Shown piece after piece: positions 12,529-47,940 of a stretch of DNA of 64,000 bases. The stretch comes from Antedon mediterranea. Its lineage: Eukaryota; Echinodermata; Crinoidea; Comatulida; Antedonidae. The number at the start of each line of letters is the position of its first letter. The first letter of the stretch is position 1. Position numbers and translations under genes: made by a program. The DNA is taken from contig NC_092673.1 in NCBI RefSeq assembly GCF_964355755.1, positions 23,069,001 to 23,133,000 on the forward strand. The letters are read 5' to 3'. Under the pieces are notes generated by a model, which worked only from the letters and a program-made list of their open reading frames with translations, made no database searches and was not told the origin of the DNA.

Positions 12529-13839
12529 TTAAAATTCTTTATCATACTTCATCCACGTGTAGTTTTGTCCCGTTACTTCTACAAGCCATTTATCGTAAGG
12601 TTTATAAAATTCTCTCAATTTTTTCAAAACTTTCGGGTCAATATTAGGATGTTTACGCCCTTTTACTTTTGGCATACATGACTTTTCTGGTTTTGATACG
12701 CAGTAAAAATGCTTCTCTTCGTCAAAATAAAAATTGTCTCTAGAAAAATAACTGTTTACACCAATGAAATCCTCAACTTTTTGAAGAGCTGGTACGGGAT
12801 CTTTAATAAACGCATCGCCATCTATAATTAATATTTGGTTACGCGGAAAGTATTCCATCCACCGCAAGATATGAACCACATAAATTCCACTATCCACAAT
12901 TGCGTTTGTGCGTACTACGTCACCATTTTCGTCAACTACGCTATCCTCAAACGTTTCACCCAATTTAGAATAAATATTCAATCCAGCTCTTTCTATGTTT
13001 TGTTTGTCTATTCTTCTATGAATGTTTCTTATTGCCTCCATCTCAGGGGATAAAGATGGAGTTAAACGGTCCTTTCGCTGTCCCTCCACCTTCATTCGTG
13101 CACGTGATTCGTCCTCGTGAACATAGTCTGAGATAGCCCTCGTCACTGGATCACGTACAATAATAATTATTTTCACGTTCGGAGATATGTCGTCGCATAT
13201 TTTTCTAGGGACATCTGGATATATAAAATATTTGGGCGTTTTTTCCATTACTTTCTGTTTGGATGTGGCATAAGGTAGATTGTCAAAGTACCATTCTATA
13301 CCAAGAAAGTATCTCACGTCAAAGTAATGCAATTCAAAATGACTTGCAATAACATCTGGGTGAAAGCACAAAAATGATTTCAATGCACTGGTTCCCGCCT
13401 TTTTCACGCCGACAATCAAAGTATCTGGAAGACGTTTTTCACAGCCCCTCTTCTTGCGTAACTTGGGCGATACCGGCTTCATCCGCGCACAATCGCGCGT
13501 CTGATAACATTGATTAGCGTTTGGATCATCGTCCGGCTCTTTCAACTTCTTCACCGGTTTTGATTTAGGTTTATTCAACTTATTATTAGTTCTTTGGAAA
13601 TGAAATGAAGTGTTTTTTGGTGCAGTCACCACTGGTTGGTCTGCCGCGTTAAGCTCCTGTAATTTACGCTCGTGGATAGGTTTCTGGACAGCTTGCTGCT
13701 GAGGATAGTCATTCTGTAGCTTGAGTAAACTCTTCTTAAACACAAGCAAAAACAGGCAAACTGTCGTCATAACCAGTATAGGCCTAGTTTTCTTGCCAAT
13801 TCTACACAACTTTCTGGCATTATAAGTAAAGGCTGACAT
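12529..13839 (-). CDS. Heparan sulfate glucosamine 3-O-sulfotransferase-like protein
   Basis: Single-exon gene for a 436-residue type II Golgi membrane enzyme that would move sulfate from PAPS to the 3-OH of glucosamine in heparan sulfate. A basic cytosolic tail (1-19) precedes one hydrophobic span (about 20-35), then a low-complexity stem rich in K, P and N, and the sulfotransferase domain from about 136. The PAPS 5'-phosphosulfate loop is VGVKKAGT (143-150), followed by FELHYFD (168-174) with the likely catalytic base E169. IIVRDPVTRAISDY (226-239) holds the 3'-phosphate-binding Arg229 and Ser237. C380 and C388 match the family disulfide, followed by KGRKHP (393-398), a PAPS-contacting loop. 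Potential N-glycosylation sites are N76 and N426. The usual GVKKGGTRAL is altered to GVKKAGTSAL, and the usual EPHFFD-type motif to ELHYFD, so this is a divergent member and exact specificity is uncertain. A candidate AATAAA (minus strand) lies at 12202-12207. Confidence 0.93.
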   Translation of the reverse strand: MSAFTYNARKLCRIGKKTRPILVMTTVCLFLLVFKKSLLKLQNDYPQQQAVQKPIHERKLQELNAADQPVVTAPKNTSFHFQRTNNKLNKPKSKPVKKLKEPDDDPNANQCYQTRDCARMKPVSPKLRKKRGCEKRLPDTLIVGVKKAGTSALKSFLCFHPDVIASHFELHYFDVRYFLGIEWYFDNLPYATSKQKVMEKTPKYFIYPDVPRKICDDISPNVKIIIIVRDPVTRAISDYVHEDESRARMKVEGQRKDRLTPSLSPEMEAIRNIHRRIDKQNIERAGLNIYSKLGETFEDSVVDENGDVVRTNAIVDSGIYVVHILRWMEYFPRNQILIIDGDAFIKDPVPALQKVEDFIGVNSYFSRDNFYFDEEKHFYCVSKPEKSCMPKVKGRKHPNIDPKVLKKLREFYKPYDKWLVEVTGQNYTWMKYDKEF

Positions 13840-14153
13840 GATGATTCATAAAAATAATCGCTGTTCGTCAGCTCGTATAAACTTGTGATTTACCAAAACA
13901 AATATCATGGAGTTTTGACAATACTTGTAAATTGTGACTTGTAGTCATGATATGTTGATGTCGGCGATAACTTGCACCTACAAAATATACAAAGACATGA
14001 TTTACAAAGTTTACAATGTTTTAGCAAGAAATAATAATAACAGTATTTAAAATAGTTTAATTTAAATTCGTCTTTGTCTAAAAAAAAATAAAGACCTGAT
14101 TCACAAAAGGATATGTTCACAAAATTAAGAACTGAACGTTTGGCATTTCATAC

Positions 14154-35270: not shown

Positions 35271-37149
35271 TTATATACATATATTTGATTGGTCAGCCAC
35301 CTCCAAACAAAACTTTCTGTCAATTGCAGAATCTTCAATGCTCTTGTTTCTCTTACAAAATGGGCATTTGACCTCAAGTACACCATCACCGCAGCAATTG
35401 CATGTTATAAAGCCATCAGGCGATGCACCTATAAACGGCCATTTCTCATTCAGCATTAGACCAGAATCAGTAACTTTAAATTCGACATGATTTGCCTTTG
35501 TGATTGATTCATACTTTTGTCTAGCTCGTGGTTGCAGCCCCATCTAGTCGCATCAGTTGAAAATTTCATGGTTTCTGGATAACAGATGCTTTTTATTAGG
35601 CTTACACTTGGTGCCCCAGCATCAGTTCTGGAAACCGCTTTCATTTTGGATGCTGTAATTCTACCCGCTCTGTAACGAAACCAACTGCTCGACTTTGCTT
35701 GTTCCCTGGTCTGTTTTTCAACATTCACAATTTCTTCTTTCGTCAAATGCAAATGGATGTTTTCACATTTCTTAACAAGCTCAGGATACGAAAGCATCAG
35801 CGCCTCTGCATCATACAGCTTGCTCATAACAGGTGGAAACTTTTCCTCAACCTCTACTGGAACAAATGCCTCACAGTATTTATGCAAAGTACTCAGGACT
35901 ACAGATTTTGGTGCAATCAGTGTCAGCTGCTCGACAAGGAATGCAAGCCCTGGGTCATTCATGACATGGAAAGCCGTTGTGCATGTTTCCACTGATGGTG
36001 TAGTAGTTGAAACTGGTGGATCTGGGGTGCCCTCATCAATTTACTCATCTAGTTTTCTTTTTTTGGCCTTTGCTGATGAAACGTCAATTGAAGCCACTGG
36101 TTTTGCCACCACATACTTTCGGTTTGGTTCCATCCAATAAGCTTTAACTTGGGTTACCATTTTCTTTTCTCTGATGCGTACACCTGCTTCGATGCCAAAT
36201 AGCAAGGTTGAAACATGTGTGCACACCTCCAATTCCTGCCACACAATCACAATGTGCACCATGGATTTTGCCCTCACTGCAGATAACCCAAGGTGACAAC
36301 GGTTTCTTAGAGACCGACTGTGAGTGCAACACAATAGTCAATAAAATAATATTAACAACAAATAATATTATTCCTTTAGTTTACAGACATTATATAAAAG
36401 ATTGCATTGTGTTTATTAATTATACAGTACTATTAATAATTGTTTATTTCAGTCGGTTTCCTGCTTATCTTATCAGTAATTAACCATGCTTATCCATCCA
36501 TGGTCCGGATATAAATTAAAATAACTTCATGGTTGTACCATAAAATAATGGTTTTACATACAGTACATAAAAAAGGGCATAGGCTTTTCTCCAAAAAAGG
36601 TTAGAACTTAATAAAATTATTAAATAAATAAGTAGTACAATTGTTTGTATCCCTTCTATCTAGCTAGGCCCAGTCTTACACAAGGCATAGGCTGTAGGCT
36701 ACTACTGCTAATAATAATATACTATTACTAGCCTACTAGCCTCCTCCTAGTTAGCGGCGGAAGACCTACTACAACAAAGTAAATTCAATATTACTTGCAT
36801 CTCCTCTAACAACTTTAAAATCTGGTCTGTGTGGGGGACAAAAAATGCCCATATCCGACAGAAATCCATTAGCAAATTGATTGTAAGCCTCTGTAGATTT
36901 GTAGGCTTGAAAATTTTCAGCTGTGTATGGGCTTGGCGTAGCGATTAAGTATGCCATGATATCCATCGATGTGAGGTCCGACAGACTGTCGATTTCGTGC
37001 GAAAATTCATCTTTATTGATCAAGTATGGGTCTTTACCGATACCTGATATTTTCTGAAGATATCTTCGACGTTCAGTTGTTGATAAATTATCAGTTATTG
37101 CTGATAAAACAATGTTTGGCAACGACAAACTAGCGGTGCTGACTGCCAT
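35271..37149 (-). pseudogene. SWIM zinc finger / YqaJ-type nuclease protein of a DNA transposon, broken
   Basis: The start codon at 37149 opens a 380-nt frame (MAVSTASLSLPNIV) with the family region AYKSTEAYNQFANGF. A second segment (about 36350-36041) has VLHSQSVSKKPLSPWVIC and the SWIM finger (CDC, then CTH after a one-base frame change at about 36222). A third (35992-35456, continued 35543-35271 after a second frame break) has the YqaJ fold: SSWFRYRAGRITASKMKAV, TRWGCNHE, MLNEKWPFIGASPDGFI and GVLEVKCPFC, i.e. the D/ExK nuclease residues. With at least two frameshifts and an unclear acceptor near 36360, it cannot make the full protein. YqaJ is a phage-lambda-exonuclease-like fold. Confidence 0.8.
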
Positions 37150-38965: not shown

Positions 38966-39334
38966 AACTTACATAGACAAAGAAATGAATATAACAAGGA
39001 TAACACAAAAGTTTAAAATTAATTCAACTTATTTCCATTGTGGTCCTTACTGCACCAGTAACTAATAGAATGGCAAGGTTCGATTTTATCCGCTATATTA
39101 GAATCGGTTGGTGGCGTGCGTTGGAATGTAAACTTAATTTGCATACCATGAGTCTCTTCCGTTATAAGGCTTGTTGTTTGTTGCCGTCGGGAGAAGACAA
39201 TTTTGTTCTTCTATCCTAGGCTAGCCTATAGGCCTAGCAATCATGACTCATTCACTCAACTTGCACGCTCCCTCTCTTCGTATGCCCCTGATCTTCTCTT
39301 TTTTTTTTAAATTTAGAGAGTATGGCTCCCTTTT

Positions 39335-40044
39335 TTAATGTTCTGTTGTGTTTCCCAGAAACATCAAATTCATCTGAGAGGCTGAAGCGAACCTCGAAAT
39401 CCTCTTCTGAATAATGATGGTTGCACACAGGACCGAGTAGTCAGACGGGGTGAAATTCAGTCTTGTACGGGAAACGGCAGCAGTCCAAAGTTTACGAATA
39501 TTCTCAATGGCCTTCATGCGCGACAAATCCTTCAAATTCACTAGTGAGTCCACTAGTGATGGCGTTACTTTTTTGGCTGTCAGTTTTCTTCCATAATTGC
39601 AAGCAGTTGATCTGCCTTTCCTCATCTGCTGCCATAACAGGGTTATCTTTTGTCCTACTGTTATGAAATTTATGGAACTCATAAAGCTCAACAATGACCA
39701 AATACGTTTTACTATTATCTCGGCCACAGTGTGAACAGGAAGCATCATGTTTTCTGGGGGGGCGGGGCGAATCACTTAATAATGTTTAGAAAGGCTGTAT
39801 CTAAGATTTTTTAGTTATTTGATTTTTTTCTTACCACGTTTGCCTTTGCGGTTGAATCGATGGTGCCTGTCTGTAGACTACCAAAGCTTCCGGTCCAAAC
39901 ACCGCTCCATCTATCCAAAATGACCGCATGTATCTCATTAGCTGTTGCATCGCCAGTACGTCTCCAGTCGATTCAAGGTGTCTAAACGCTGCCTGTATGT
40001 GTTCTAGCGGAATCACCGGTAATGACATCAACTGCCTGATGATC
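39335..40044 (-). pseudogene. MULE-type transposase remnant
   Basis: The exon starting after TTTAG at 40045 reads IIRQLMSLPVIPLEHIQAAF, then LMRYMRSFWIDGAVFGPEA and VVYRQ, which fits the region after the MULE transposase core in FLYWCH/MULE proteins. The usual RTNNDVEGW segment is missing and the frame changes, resuming as HHRFNRKGKRG before a GTAAGA donor at 39836. A second, frame-broken piece (39775-39335) includes VELYEFHKFHN and ERQINCLQLWKK, and TPSDYSVLCATIIIQKR. Internal deletion and frame breaks mark it as dead. It may or may not relate to the Mutator-like elements at 31.7-33.1 kb. Confidence 0.6.
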
Positions 40045-40339
40045 TAAATTAAAAATCATTTTTTTAAATAAAGTAGACGCATGAGGATTTTCTTACCAAG
40101 TGTGTAGCAGCGTCAAATACAAATACAAATATGGCCAAAAAAAATGTTGGTACAATAAAATTACCTTTGTTTTGAGTGAAATAATGAGTACCTACCTGTA
40201 CTTACGGTAGTTCGCCTGAACTGTGTTCGCAGATTTCTGTTTCACTTTCTGCAGATACTTCTCTCTGTTAGTTTTTTTATTATTTAGAAATTCAATTTGG
40301 TCAAGTGTGATCATATTCACACAAGGCGGTGTTGCTTAC

Positions 40340-40424
40340 CTTTCTTGAGGGGCTTGTCTCGCCCAGTGGCTCTTTGCACTAATGTTAATCTTTTCAATAA
40401 AAAACACAGGGGAGTGGTATCCAT
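40340..40424 (-). pseudogene. Orphan leader exon A0 of the array
   Basis: Same 85-nt open segment as the other A exons (28 codons plus one base, before a GTAAG donor), with AAG at codon 27. No exon B lies downstream: the sequence below 40335 is unrelated. It marks the truncated lower border of the array. Confidence 0.6.
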
Positions 40425-40642
40425 ATTGATTTAGAATTTAGAAGGGCTCTGTTCGACCTGGTAGGATGCGTCCCACTGTCCAGTTCGTTGTGGAACATGT
40501 ATTACATGGCAGATATCTACAGTATACCTAGTATATACCTGCTATAGCGGTAAGCTGAACCACTATCAGGAAGGGTATTTCACTACACTGTAAAATCGTT
40601 GCCTTTCTGTTTGCCTTCACATTAACTCGTCTAGGCATTCAC

Positions 40643-41002
40643 TTAACCATTCTCTTTTAAGGTTTGTGTTCTTTCTGCATCAATTTGTTTGTTTTGCAAA
40701 CAAAGCATTCTTGCCTTTGAAAGTAATTCTTCCTTATCTGATTTTATTGAAAGCCATTCCAACGTCTTATTGCATTTATGCACTATCTTACTTTCCACAT
40801 AACTTAAACTGGCATTCGGAGCTCGCTTTATGTAATGGTCAGTAATCCAAATACTCTCACACCACTTGTACATGACTTTGCATGTTCTTTTAACTTATCA
40901 CTGGCGGTTTTACTTACCTTTCTTGAGGGGCTTGTCTCGCCCAGTGGCTCTTTGCACTAATGTTAATCTTTTCAATAAAAAACACAGGGGAGTGGTATCC
41001 AT
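40643..41002 (-). pseudogene. Array unit 1: open leader, truncated main exon
   Basis: Leader 41002-40918 is open through codon 28 (RDKPLKK). If the 42-nt GTAAGT...AAG intron at 40917-40876 is spliced, it joins in frame to MYKWCESIW at 40873. The main exon stops at 40643 after ERTQTL: its second half is replaced by the flank-type sequence TTCACTTAACCATTCTCTTT. This is the only unit with both a stop-free leader and an attached main exon, but it lacks the second half of the protein. Confidence 0.55.
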
Positions 41003-41186
41003 ATTGATTTAGAATTTAGAAAGGCTCTGTTCGACCTGGTAGGATGCGTCCCACTGTCCAGTTCGTTGTGGAACATGTATTACATGGCAGATATCTACAG
41101 TATACCTAGTATATAGCTGCTATAGCAGTACATAAGCTGAAACCACTATCAGGAAGGGTATTTCATTACACTGTAAAATCTTTGCC

Positions 41187-41762
41187 TTAATGTTCCCTTT
41201 CCAGAACCTGAATTTTTCTGACATTTAGCTGCGCCTTTAAAGCTAATTCTTGTTTCTTCTTTGTTCCTAAACCTTCAAATTCATACTTGTCATGCCGCAG
41301 CTCTCCATACTGCATCAAGTTGTTTAGCGTGTTTTCATTTAACAGCCTAGCTCTATCAACTTTTTCCACCATGCCTTTGCGATTGTCATCTAAGTGCTGC
41401 TTCTTGTCTTCTGCTAAGGTTTGTGTTCTTTCTGCATCAATTTGTTTGTTTCGCAAACAAAGCATTCTGGCCTTTGAAAGTAATTCTTCCTTATCTGATT
41501 TTGTTGAAAGCCATTCCAACGTCTTATTGCATTTATGCACTATCTTACTTTCCACATAACTTAAACTGGTATTCGGAGCTCGCTTTATGTAATGGTCAGT
41601 ATTAATCCAAATACTCTCACACCACTTGTACATGACTTTGCATGTTCTTTTAACTTATCGCTGGCTGTGTTACTTACCTTTCTAGAGTGGCTTGTCTCGC
41701 CCAGTGGCTCTTTGCACTAATGTTAATCTTTTCAATAAAAAACACAGGGGAGTGGTATCCAT
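41187..41762 (-). CDS. Array unit 2: 148-codon open main exon
   Basis: Main frame 41633-41187 is fully open: MYKWCESIW, HKCNKTLEWLSTKSDKEELL, a K/E/R-rich helical stretch, and KAQLNVRKIQVLEREH at the end. The NKTxxxLxxKxxxEExxLxxxAR pattern followed by charged helices and a KAQLxxRK tail resembles the C-terminal part of mobile-element-derived proteins in invertebrates. The leader (41762-41678) has TAG at codon 27. It carries one extra codon (WINTDHY) relative to other units. Confidence 0.5.
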
Positions 41763-41997
41763 ATTGATTTAGAATTTAGAAGGGCTGTGTTCGACCTGGT
41801 AGGATGCGTCCCACTGTCCAGTTCATTGTGGAACATGTAATACATGGCAGATACCTACAGTATACCTAGTATATACCTGCTATAGCGGTAAGCTGAACCA
41901 CTATCAGGAAGGGTATTTCATTACACTGTAAAATCTTTGCCTTAATATTCCCTTTCCAGAACCTGAATTTTTCTGACATGTAGCTGCGCCTTTAAAG

Positions 41998-42525
41998 CTA
42001 CAGTAACTCTTGTTTCTTCTTCGTTCCTAAACCTCCAAATTCAAATTCATACTTGTCCTTTCGCAGCTCTCCATACTGCATCAAGTCGTTTAGCGTGTTT
42101 TCGTTCAACAGCCTAGCTCTATCAGCCTTTTCCACCATGCCTTTGCGATTGTCATCTAAGTGCTGCTTCTTATCTTCTGCTAAGGTTTGTGTTCTTTCTG
42201 CATCAATTTGTTTGTTTCGCAAACAAAGCATTCTGGCCTTTGAAAGTAATTCTTCCTTATCTGATTTTGTTGAAAGCCATTCCAACGTCTTATTGCATTT
42301 ATGCACTATCTTACTTTCCACATAACTTAAACTGGCATTCTGAGCTCGCTTTATGTAATGGTCAGTAATCCAAATACTCTCACACCACTTGTACATGAAT
42401 TTGCATGTTCTTTTAACTTATCGCTGGCGGTGTTACTTACCTTTCTAGAGTGGCTTGTCTCGCCCAGTGGCTCTTTGCACTAATGTTAATCTTTTCAATA
42501 AAAAACACAGGGGAGTGGTATCCAT
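41998..42525 (-). pseudogene. Array unit 3: frame lost near the C-terminus
   Basis: Open from MYKWCESIW (42396) through FEFGGLGTKKKQEL, then an insertion around 42000 (CTACAGTAACTC in place of CTAACTC) ends the frame at KKQELL. Leader 42525-42441 has TAG at codon 27. Confidence 0.55.
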
Positions 42526-42704
42526 ATTTATTTAGAATTTAGAAGGCCTCTGTTCGACCTGGTAGGATGCGTCCCACTGTCCAGTTTGTTGTGGAACATG
42601 TATTACATGGCAGATATCTACAGTATACCTAGTATATACCTGCTATAGCGGTAAGCTGAACCACTATCAGGAAGGGTATTTCATTACACTGTAAAATCTT
42701 TGCC

Positions 42705-43280
42705 TTAATGTTCCCTTTCCATAACCTGAATTTTTCTAACATTTAGCTGCGCCTTTAAAGCTAACTCTTGTTTCTTCTTTATTCCTGAACCTTCAAATTC
42801 ATACTTGTCATGCCGCAGCTCTCCACACTGCATCAAGTCGTTTAGAGTGTTTTCGTTACACAGCCTAGCTCTATCAGCTTTTTCCACCATGCCTTTGCGA
42901 TTGTCATCTAAGTGCTGCTTCTTATCTTCTGCTAAGGTTTGTGTTCTTTCTTCTGCATCAATTTGTTTGTTTCGCAAACAAAGCATTCTGGCTTTTGAAA
43001 GTAATTCTTCCTTATCTGATTTTGTTGAAAGCCATTCCAACATCTTATTGCATTTATGCACTATCTTACTTTCCACATAACTTAAACTGGTATTCGGAGC
43101 TCGCTTTATGTAATGGTCAGTAATCCAAATACTCTCACACCACTTGTACATGACTTTGCATGTTCTTATAACTTATCGCTGGCGGTGTTACTTACCTTTC
43201 TAGAGGGGCTTGTCTCGCCCAGTGGCTCTTTGCACTAATGTTAATCTTTTCAATAAAAAACACAGGGGAGTGGTATCCAT
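42705..43280 (-). CDS. Array unit 4: 148-codon open main exon
   Basis: Main frame 43151-42705 is open to KAQLNVRKIQVMEREH. Unit-specific changes include an extra Glu (DAEERTQ), Cys for Leu (ARLCNEN) and Cys for Tyr (LMQCGEL). The leader 43280-43196 carries TAG at codon 27. No transmembrane or signal segment; predicted mostly helical and charged. Function unknown. Confidence 0.5.
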
Positions 43281-43461
43281 ATTGATTTAGAATTTAGAAG
43301 GGCTGTGTTTGACCTGGTAGGATGCGTCCCACTGTCCAGTTCGTTGTGGAACATGTATTACATGGCAGATATCTACAGTATACCTATAGTATATACCTGC
43401 TATAGCGGTAAGCTAAACCACTATCAGGAAGGGTATTTCATTACACTGTAAAATCTTTGCC

Positions 43462-44040
43462 TTAATGTTCCCTTTCCAGAACCTGAATTTTTCTGACATT
43501 TAGCTGCGCCTTTAAAGCTAACTCTTGTTTCTTCTTCGTTCCTAAACCTCCAAATTCAAATTCATACTTGTCATTTCGCAGCTCTCCATACTGCATCAAG
43601 TCGTTTAGCGTGTTTTCATTTAACAGCCTAGCTCTATCAGCCTTTTCCACCATGCCTTTGCGATTGTCATCTAAGTGCTGCTTCTTATCTTCTGCTAAGG
43701 TTTGTGTTCTTTCTGCATCAATTTGTTTGTTTCGCAAACAAAGCATTCTGGCCTTTGAAAGTAATTCTTCCTTATCTGATTTTGTTGAAAGCCATTCCAA
43801 CGTCTTATTGCATTTATGCACTATCTTACTTTCCACATAACTTAAACTGGCATTCGGAGCTCGCTTTATGTAATGGTCAGTAATCCAAATACTCTCACAT
43901 CACTTGTACATGACTTTGCATGTTCTTTTAACTTATTGCTGGCGGTGTTACTTACCTTTCTAGAGTGGCTTGTCTCGCCCAGTGGCTCTTTGCACTAATG
44001 TTAATCTTTTAAAAAAAAAACACAGGGGAGTGGTATCCAT
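43462..44040 (-). pseudogene. Array unit 5: stop at codon 4 of the main exon
   Basis: At 43911 the main exon begins MYK followed by TGA (from TGG), the rest being open to 43462 (KIQVLEREH). Leader 44040-43956 has TAG at codon 27. The same TGA is found in unit 7, exactly 1,523 bp away. Confidence 0.6.
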
Positions 44041-44219
44041 ATTTATTTAGAATTTAGAAGGGCTCTGTTCGACCTGGTAGGATGCGTCCCACTGTCCAGT
44101 TCGTTGTGGAACATGTATTACATGGCAGATATCTACAGTATACCTAGTATATACCTGCTATAGCGGTAAGCTGAACCACTATCAGGAAGGGTATTTCATT
44201 ACACTGTAAAATCTTTGCC

Positions 44220-44802
44220 TTAATGTTCCCTTTCCAGAACCTGAATTTTTCTGACATGTAGCTGCGCCTTTAAAGCTAACTCTTGTTTCTTCTTCGTTCC
44301 TAAACCTCCAAATTCAAATTCATACTTGTCATGCCGCAGCTCTCCATACTGCATCAAGTTGTTTAGCGTGTTTTTGTTCAACAGCCTAGCTCTATCAACT
44401 TTTTCCACCATGCCTTTGCGATTGTCATCTAAGTGCTGCATCTTGTCTTCTGCTAAGGTTTGTGTTCTTTCTGCATATGATCAATTTTTTTGTTTCGCAA
44501 ACAAAACATTCTGCCCTTTGAAAGTAATTCTTCCTTATCTGATTTTGTTGAAGCCATTCCAACGTCTTATTGCATTTATGCGCTATCTTACTTTCCACAT
44601 AACTTAAACTGGCATTCGGAGCTCGCTTTATGTAATGGTCAGTAATCCAAATACTCTCACACCACTTGTACATGACTTTGCATATTCTTTTAACTTATCA
44701 CTGGCGGTGTTACTTACCTTTCTAGTGTGGCTTGTCTCGCCCAGTGGCTCTTTGCACTAATGTTAATCTTTTCAATAAAAAACACAGGGGAGTGGTATCC
44801 AT
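44220..44802 (-). pseudogene. Array unit 6: double frameshift
   Basis: Opens MYKWCESIW at 44673. A one-base deletion near 44551 shifts the frame (LEWLQQNQIRKNYF), and an insertion near 44476 (ATATGATC) follows; the original frame is open again from about 44441 to 44220. Both lesions recur in unit 8. The leader 44802-44718 has CTAGTG in place of CTAGAG, still giving TAG. Confidence 0.6.
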
Positions 44803-44989
44803 ATTTATTTAGAATTTAGAAGGGCTCTGTTCGACCTGGTAGGATGCGTCCCACTGTCCAGTTCGTTGTGGAACATGTATTACATGGCAGATATCTACAG
44901 TATACCTAGTATATACCTGCTATAGCGGTAAGCTGAACCACTATCAGGAAGGGTATTTCATTACACTGTAAAATCTTTGCCTTAATTAA

Positions 44990-45563
44990 TGTTCCCTTTC
45001 CATAACCTGAATTTTTCTGACATTTAGCTGCGCCTTTAAAGCTAACACTTGTTTCTTCTTTGTTCCTAAACCTCCAAATTCAAATTCATACTTGTCATGC
45101 CGCAGCTCTCCATACTGCATCAAGTCGTTTAGCGTGTTTCATTTAACAGCCTAGCTCTATCAGCTTTTTCCACCATGCCTTTGCGATTGTCATCTAAGTG
45201 CTGCTTCTTGTCTTCTGCTAAGGTTTGTGTTCTTTCTGCATCAATTTGTTTGTTTCGCAAACAAAGCATTCTGGTCTTTGAAAGTAATTCTTCCTTATCT
45301 GATTTTGTTGAAAGCCATTCCAACGTCTTATTGCATTTATGCACTATCTTACTTTCCACATAACTTAAACTGGCATTCGGAGCTCGCTTTATGTAATGGT
45401 CAGTAATCCAAATACTCTCACATCACTTGTACATGACTTTGCATGTTCTTTTAACTTATCGCTGGCGGTGTTACTTACCTTTCTAGAGTGGCTTGTCTCG
45501 CCCAGTGGCTCTTTGCACTAATGTTAATCTTTTCAAAAAAAAACACAGGGGAGTGGTATCCAT
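44990..45563 (-). pseudogene. Array unit 7: stop and frameshift
   Basis: Main exon starts at 45434 as MYK then TGA, as in unit 5. A one-base deletion near 45139 (GTGTTTCATTT) breaks the second half. Leader 45563-45479 has TAG at codon 27. Confidence 0.6.
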
Positions 45564-45742
45564 ATTTATTTAGAATTTAGAAGGGCTCTGTTCGACCTGG
45601 TAGGATGCGTCCCACTGTCCAGTTCGTTGTGGAACATGTATTACATGGCAGATATCTACAGTATACCTAGTATATACCTGCTATAGCGGTAAGCTGAACC
45701 ACTATCAGGAAGGGTATTTCATTACACTGTAAAATCTTTGCC

Positions 45743-46325
45743 TTAATGTTCCCTTTCCAGAACTTGAATTTTTCTGACATGTAGCTGCGCCTTTAAAGCT
45801 AACTCTTGTTTATTCTTCGTTCCTAAACCTCCAAATTCAAATTCATACTTGTCATGCCGCAGCTCTCCATACTGCATCAAGTTGTTTAGCGTGTTTTTGT
45901 TCAACAGCCCAGCTCTATCAGCTTTTTCCACCATGCCTTTGCGATTGTCATCTAAGTGCTGCATCTTGTCTTCTGCTAAGGTTTGTGTTCTTTCTGCATA
46001 TGATCAATTTTTTTGTTTCGCAAACAAAACATTCTGCCCTTTGAAAGTAATTCTTCCTTATCTGATTTTGTTGAAGCCATTCCAACGTCTTATTGCATTT
46101 ATGCGCTATCTTACTTTCCACATAACTTAAACTGGCATTCGGAGCTCGCTTTATGTAATGGTCAGTAATCCAAATACTCTCACCCCACTTGTACATGACT
46201 TTGCATGTTCTTTTAACTTATCGCTGGCGGTGTTACTTACCTTTCTAGTGTGGCTTGTCTCGCCTAGTGGCTCTTTGCACTAATGTTAATCTTTTCAATA
46301 AAAAACACAGGGGAGTGGTATCCAT
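45743..46325 (-). pseudogene. Array unit 8: double frameshift
   Basis: Opens MYKWGESIW at 46196 (Cys to Gly at residue 5) and shares the deletion and the ATATGATC insertion of unit 6. The frame is open again from 45964 to 45743. Leader 46325-46241 has TAG. This is the upstream-most unit on the minus strand. Confidence 0.6.
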
Positions 46326-46455
46326 ATTTATTTAGAATTTAGAAGGGCTCTGTTCGACCTGGTAGGATGCGTCCCACTGTCCAGTTCGTTGTGGAACATG
46401 TATTACATGGCAAATATCTACAGTATACCTAGTATATACCTGCTATAGCAGTAAG

Positions 46456-47940
46456 CTGCCTTCACATGAACTCGTCTAGGTATTCACTTAACCATTCTCT
46501 TTTAACACCCTTCATGACATTAAGTTACGATTTATTAATTCCAGCTTTGACTGCTTCAAGATGGCGGCACACCACCACCATCTTGAATTATTGTGAGTTC
46601 GATGTCGCTTTCTTCACCATTGCTTTTTTGATGTACACAATTCTACCTTTTTGCTGTTTAGGAGGTATATTGATAATTCGTGGGGTTTAAATTAGCTTTA
46701 CCTGCAAAAACCTAACCATAAGCTAAAAAGAAATTTACATTAGAGTTTGGATTTGTTTGTATTCCGGCCCATGGTGCCACACGTCACCCGCTGCGCCGGG
46801 GGATGGATCGAGGCTAAGAATCAAACTTTTCTTTTAACGACAAATTACAGTTACAACTTAAATAGTATTATATGATCTGGAACTAAATAATTTGACTTAA
46901 CTCACCACGTGGACAAGATCGATGACTTCCTACAGGTACCCCTACACTGCCTTCATCTTGAAATCCAGATTAACTTTTTTTATGGTGCAATGTGAGAGCA
47001 TTGGTCTCCTTCATCTTCTTCCTCTTGCATTTTAACTTGTGTTGTTGATCATCCAATTCAGGAACATTCAATTGTTGCTCAACAAATCTTTCTATGATTG
47101 AAAATTTTGTTAAGCTCTTCCATTATACTTAGGCCTAAAGTAGTTGGCTATTATTATCTTTGGCACCATTCGGTAAATCTTAATCAGTGACCCCCATTGC
47201 ATTTTAACTCATGAAATGTCAATGAATTGACAAATGATGGTTATTATTTCAATCATTTATACAATACCTGTATAAGAATTGTACTTGTGATACTAGTGAA
47301 TATCATTTGTTTTATATGATTATTCGGGCACAATGTTTGTATTTCTTAAAGGCTAAGAATTATGCAATTAAAGTAACTTTATCCTTTAAAAATTGGTTTC
47401 TTTGTGTAGTGTCTTCTGTGGTTCCACTGTACTAATTTTGTTCCTATCATTTATTGAGTGAGTGAGAAGGTGTAAAATTGTCCAGTATTTCCCACTGGAC
47501 ATAATCTTTGCAATGCCTTTCTGTTATGAAAGATGGTTGCACAAGATGGCATGTCGGTTGCCTGAAAGCACACTGTGTTATCCTTTTTCAACTGTCGTGA
47601 TATTATTACAACTAAATTTCTAATGCGATGATATTCCTATTACGATCATCAATACCTGTAAATCTATTTACAGTATTTCCCACCAGGAAGCTAATATGAA
47701 AATGCCTTTCTAATTAAGTCAGGTTGCCCAAGATGATTCTACACTATATCAGATTGCGCCTGTATGCTAATGATGATGAAATACCTATTACTAACATCAA
47801 TATCTGAAGAACCTCTCTATTTGGCAAGTCTTTACACACAGCAAAGGCATCTTATGGCTCATGACATGAGTGACCCCCACCAATGATTATTGGTAATAGT
47901 AACCAAGAATTTCCTCATTTCTGTCTTAGTGGTTTTTTAA
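46456..47940. other. No gene recognised
   Basis: Sequence past the upper end of the array. It contains a palindromic CAAGATGGCGG...CCACCATCTTG near 46556-46586 and many short repeats, but no exon series that I could support. Frames of 60-75 codons here look like chance. Confidence 0.5.

Follow-up and report, generated by a model that had tools for sequence, protein, structure and literature searches.

In the DNA analysed here, a window of 64,000 nucleotides from the crinoid Antedon mediterranea (contig NC_092673.1, positions 23,069,001 to 23,133,000; coordinates below are those of the window), a row of similar units carries a long reading frame on the minus strand. Such an arrangement raises the question whether the units encode a protein held by selection, or carry the remains of one. 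The first-pass annotation had placed an array of roughly 760-bp units at 40340–46455 and had proposed that it is a coding-capable satellite. The array is indeed present, with slightly different edges, and comprises seven full units of 755–763 bp, preceded by a rearranged unit and followed by a partial one:

40325–46456 (edges approximate), no strand assigned: whole tandem array.
40365–40942, minus strand: unit 1, rearranged; the transposase-derived part has lost its middle, in place of which there is a short stretch akin to the right flank.
40943–41702, minus strand: unit 2, full; 148-codon ATG frame intact at 41187–41633.
41703–42465, minus strand: unit 3, full; a five-base insertion cuts the frame near its end.
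42466–43220, minus strand: unit 4, full; 148-codon ATG frame intact at 42705–43151.
43221–43980, minus strand: unit 5, full; in-frame stop directly after the ATG.
43981–44742, minus strand: unit 6, full; one base lost and five gained.
44743–45503, minus strand: unit 7, full; one base lost.
45504–46265, minus strand: unit 8, full; two indels identical to those of unit 6.
46266–46456, minus strand: partial last unit, containing non-transposase sequence only.

Measured from a constant anchor, the units are spaced 578, 760, 763, 755, 760, 762, 761 and 762 bp apart, followed by a partial copy of 195 bp. The array is not a product of chance, because whole-unit matches to the sequence of unit 2 are 94–96% identical; pairwise, the seven full units diverge by 1.2–4.3%. 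Tandem Repeats Finder, whose longest period is 500, did not list the array. Head-to-tail repeats with high similarity between units are present, as in a satellite. The abundance, long arrays or presence at several loci that also characterise satellites were not found: there is one locus with seven full and two incomplete units, as judged from searches whose match counts are lower bounds.

The frame could be traced to a family of transposase-like proteins. When the 155-residue array frame was used in a protein search of the same genome, 19 matches were returned, 13 in the array and six elsewhere. The relatives include an open frame of 724 residues on C8 (62% identity over 133 residues), one of 842 residues on C5 (46% identity), one of 397 residues on C4 (53% identity) and a broken copy on C7 with eight stops (67% identity). 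The first three lie at G000 C8:25890712, C5:1367926 and C4:12862686 (loci L002, L003 and L004). With the C5 protein as query, 43 genome matches were obtained, eight of them in the array, and 15 of the 43 contain stops. The C8 locus has a 724-residue frame and another of 366 residues, with intervening stops that are perhaps an intron; an initial family size of about 1,170 residues, taken from the 1,176 printed for C8, was dropped for that reason. The three adjoining frames at L004 (360, 255 and 397 residues) total 1,012 residues, and the family size is therefore roughly 1,000 residues.

Five of seven extracted pieces were taken into the family alignment. All five have in common the aspartate in TM.D, a C..H pair and the glutamate in (G/S)E(R/F), while an upstream aspartate, in DGT, is present in all three aligned pieces that reach that far. 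The conserved D, D, E pattern resembles that of DDE-type transposases, to which the family would then belong. Among five frames from the three relatives, none matched a Pfam family above the cut-off, and these proteins may possibly form an undescribed group. A solved-structure search with the 842-residue relative gave one match, with an E-value of 0.2, which was set aside. Convincing terminal inverted repeats were not found around the parents among the 25 longest of 88–94 pairs per locus: those at L002 and L003 are AT-rich and chance-like, and none was recognised flanking the L004 frames. The homology of the array unit to the transposase-like family is clear by sequence, and the family is presumably mobile.

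The unit is a composite. About 460 bp of it derive from the carboxy-terminal helical tail of this family, and the remaining 300 bp or so have no relatives outside the array that could be detected by DNA search of the same genome. The two parts are exemplified by:

43488–43942, minus strand: transposase-derived part in unit 5, 81% identical to L001:3660–4107, the broken C7 copy.
43935–44215, minus strand: part for which no relatives could be detected; it includes the short leader frame and a GTAAGT site resembling a splice donor.

The DNA searches covered 354 Mb in 18 contigs, and their match counts are lower bounds, very common words having been skipped. A query of about one unit gave at least 12 matches, of which the array accounts for 11; the remaining one, on C7, is 81% identical over the transposase-derived part. 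The non-transposase part as query gave nine matches (E-values up to 10; again a lower bound), all nine inside the array, so that genome-wide, array-type matches are confined to a single locus. Composite satellite monomers resemble several different elements; in the present unit, one part could be assigned and the other gave no matches.

The leader does occupy a constant place on the minus strand, as had been noted, although its length is 26 codons in unit 5 instead of the 28 given earlier. It lies in the 300-bp part, for which no relation to the family is apparent. By eye the leader looked like a further piece of the transposase, a likeness ruled out by shuffle tests. Its DNA score on the minus strand was equalled by shuffles in 12 of 60 cases for L001, 56 of 60 for L002 and 20 of 60 for L003; the figure for L004 was 60 of 60, and on the plus strand 11 of 60 (L001) and 38 of 60 (L002). 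In nine protein comparisons, each score was equalled by 60 to 195 of 200 shuffles.

A functional transposase would hold catalytic-like residues in an intact frame, and the array fragment does not. The D, D and C..H positions conserved in the family are absent from it, and its beginning lies near the conserved glutamate, where all seven full units, in the ancestral frame, read valine (GTG). The 148-codon frame is intact in two of the eight units, as originally reported, and lies there within stop-to-stop frames of 155 residues. In the other six it is broken by loss of the middle (unit 1), by frameshifting indels (units 3, 6, 7 and 8) or by an early stop (unit 5); some other indels between units, of three and six bases, keep the frame. 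Compared with L001–L004, one base is missing just before GACCATTAC in all seven full units, and the letters of unit 1 are identical here, so the loss is present in all eight units that include the site. Upstream of the loss, the ancestral frame reads ...DKLKEHAKSCTSGVRVFGLL, followed by a stop. Because the base is lost relative to the four other copies, the 148-codon frame is read out of phase over its ATG and first eleven or so residues (MYKWCESIWIT in unit 4). Past the loss the frame is the ancestral one, except where a five-base loss and a one-base loss enclose about ten codons, and the likeness to the relatives stops shortly past NVRK. Towards the end of the fragment, the array and the C7 copy have a one-base loss in common, which is compensated upstream. 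A two-base loss, or frameshift, that had seemed to be shared with the C7 copy was withdrawn after wider alignment, in which the array differs at that place by a substitution and by the in-frame loss of 12 bases.

A structure model built for the unit 2 frame from its single sequence consists largely of helices (mean pLDDT 71, pTM 0.30). Together with the long relatives, it bears out the original suggestion that the frame comes from the helical carboxy-terminal part of a protein like those of mobile elements, amplified in tandem. Pfam searches with two array frames gave one weak match each below the cut-off, Peptidase_C58 and SIR4_SID, which we take as noise of helical sequence.

Selection on the frame was assessed by counting changes over 154 codons in the seven full units, with unit 1 and the partial last unit left out. 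Of the changes, 29 alter an amino acid and 11 are silent, where random placement of the same base changes leads to an expected 29.5 changing ones (SD 2.7); the ratio of changing to silent changes is 0.94 of the neutral value. The variable sites are distributed over the codon positions as 13, 12 and 14, without bias, and variable columns make up 8.4% both inside the frame (39 of 462) and outside it (25 of 298). When the three minus-strand frames were compared over 153 codons, the changing and silent counts were 28 and 11, 29 and 11, and 30 and 10, against neutral expectations of 28.9, 29.7 and 30.8 changing. In a binomial estimate, which assumes independent changes and would be weakened by exchange between units, the probability of 29 or more changing sites is 0.0006 for a true ratio of 0.3, 0.009 for 0.4, 0.048 (marginal) for 0.5 and 0.13 for 0.6. 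Weak constraint, with a ratio of 0.5–0.6 or above, is compatible with the counts, marginally so at 0.5. Units 2 and 4, taken by themselves, differ by nine changing and six silent changes, which is under the neutral proportion and too few to judge. Purifying selection, as expected of an array of protein-coding genes, is not seen in the full-unit counts, and variation in the frame looks neutral, like that of non-coding DNA. The near-neutral ratio across units is the sequence half of the outcome that the first-pass annotation had named as speaking against its own proposal. With a ratio of 0.94, the other frames behaving alike and the start out of frame, the coding-capable satellite is not upheld.

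Units 5 and 7 diverge by 1.72% and units 6 and 8 by 1.18%, whereas the neighbours 5 and 6 diverge by 3.43% and 7 and 8 by 2.91%. Because of this closeness, and of the two indels common to units 6 and 8, the pairs 5–6 and 7–8 would fit a duplicated block of two units. This was probably not the sole event, as the similarity of units 3 and 5 (1.85% divergence) is left unexplained by simple block duplication. At its left end the array contains a piece related to the sequence beyond its right end:

40612–40660, minus strand: 49-bp piece in unit 1, with 47 of 49 positions the same as in the right flank.
46457–46560, minus strand: right flank, a remnant of another transposase, of which 49 bp (46457–46505) match the piece in unit 1.

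We take the right-flank remnant to be a Merlin/ISXO2-like transposase; Pfam gave an ISXO2-like transposase domain only below the cut-off (E 0.039). Related sequence is found at two more places (L005 and L006), where the frame reads GVKREWLSEYLDEFMWR. The simplest account of unit 1 would be a break repaired with a patch from a remnant of the flank type. Compared with L005, the insert in unit 1 seems some bases longer than the present right flank, so an earlier copy, or a different one, may have served as donor.

Very probably, the locus is a dead, composite transposon relic that was multiplied in tandem on the spot, an event of a familiar kind. The starting point would have been a decayed transposase-like gene copy, cut down to about 460 bp of its carboxy-terminal helical tail, which came to adjoin some 300 bp of unrelated DNA. 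The composite piece would then have been duplicated head to tail at one locus, amid other transposon remnants. The array presumably expanded by unequal exchange, and unit 1 appears to have been patched with a short piece akin to the flanking remnant. The reading frame would be an inherited leftover, decaying neutrally, and we infer that the array lacks function. There is a small chance that it is a new repeat near its birth, assembled from the dead transposase tail, a stretch of other DNA with its splice-donor-like leader and, in unit 1, a patch from a second transposon, and with units that are possibly transcribed.

It is very unlikely that the units are clustered small genes maintained by selection, each encoding a helical protein behind a leader exon. 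The frame present in two units, the leader with its GTAAGT site upstream and the helices modelled for unit 2 agree with such genes, but the neutral pattern of changes, the equal variability inside and outside the frame, its breakage in six of eight units and the out-of-frame start argue against them. Small-RNA pathways can draw on arrayed transposon fragments, a general precedent by which the array might be a source of small RNAs silencing the parent family, whatever its frame. We consider this highly improbable: with L002–L004 the array shares exact runs of at most 14 bases on either strand, and a longer run, of 41 bases, occurs among the four fetched loci only with the broken C7 copy. Equally slight is the chance that the number or order of units is an error of assembly; tandem arrays are easily miscounted, but the units of this one are 1.2–4.3% apart and carry distinct indels.

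Interpreted as a local array of a dead relic, the locus is a small instance of a published kind, satellites with a mobile-element frame. The review PMC9659126 describes partial mobile-element frames in the satellite units of chicken (HinfI, with CR1), Phodopus (PROsat, with LINE-1) and rye (E900, with gag). Like these, our unit is a partial mobile-element frame amplified in tandem; unlike these satellites, it comes from a transposase-like gene, occupies one short locus and includes a part of unassigned origin. Composite satellite monomers are hypothesised in PMC12628747 to arise in 'TE graveyards', and our unit is likewise chimeric and close to degraded transposon remnants. Unlike the monomers described there, only one part of it is tied to an element, and no spread past one locus was found. 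With the parent family (C8:25.89 Mb, C5:1.37 Mb and C4:12.86 Mb) the array shares a homologous carboxy-terminal tail, but its frame is broken and the D, D and C..H positions conserved in the family are missing. By itself the array is of little weight. It does show clearly how a broken mobile-element gene turns into a tandem repeat, and it cautions that open frames handed down from a parent gene can mimic coding satellites while evolving neutrally.

Several other features are present in the window. At 39255–40043 on the minus strand there are degenerate frames, presumably pieces of THAP-like and MULE-like transposases; Pfam gave no family for the four frames tested there. An exonuclease/recombinase remnant in two frames is located at 35274–36040, also on the minus strand, with YqaJ (E 5.7e-10) recognised in one frame and Viral_alk_exo (E 1.9e-5, just above the cut-off) in the other. 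A 438-residue open frame at 12529–13845 on the minus strand is sulfotransferase-like (Pfam Sulfotransfer_1, E 1.1e-25), and a minisatellite array with a 34-bp period and about 28 copies extends from 150 to 1109.
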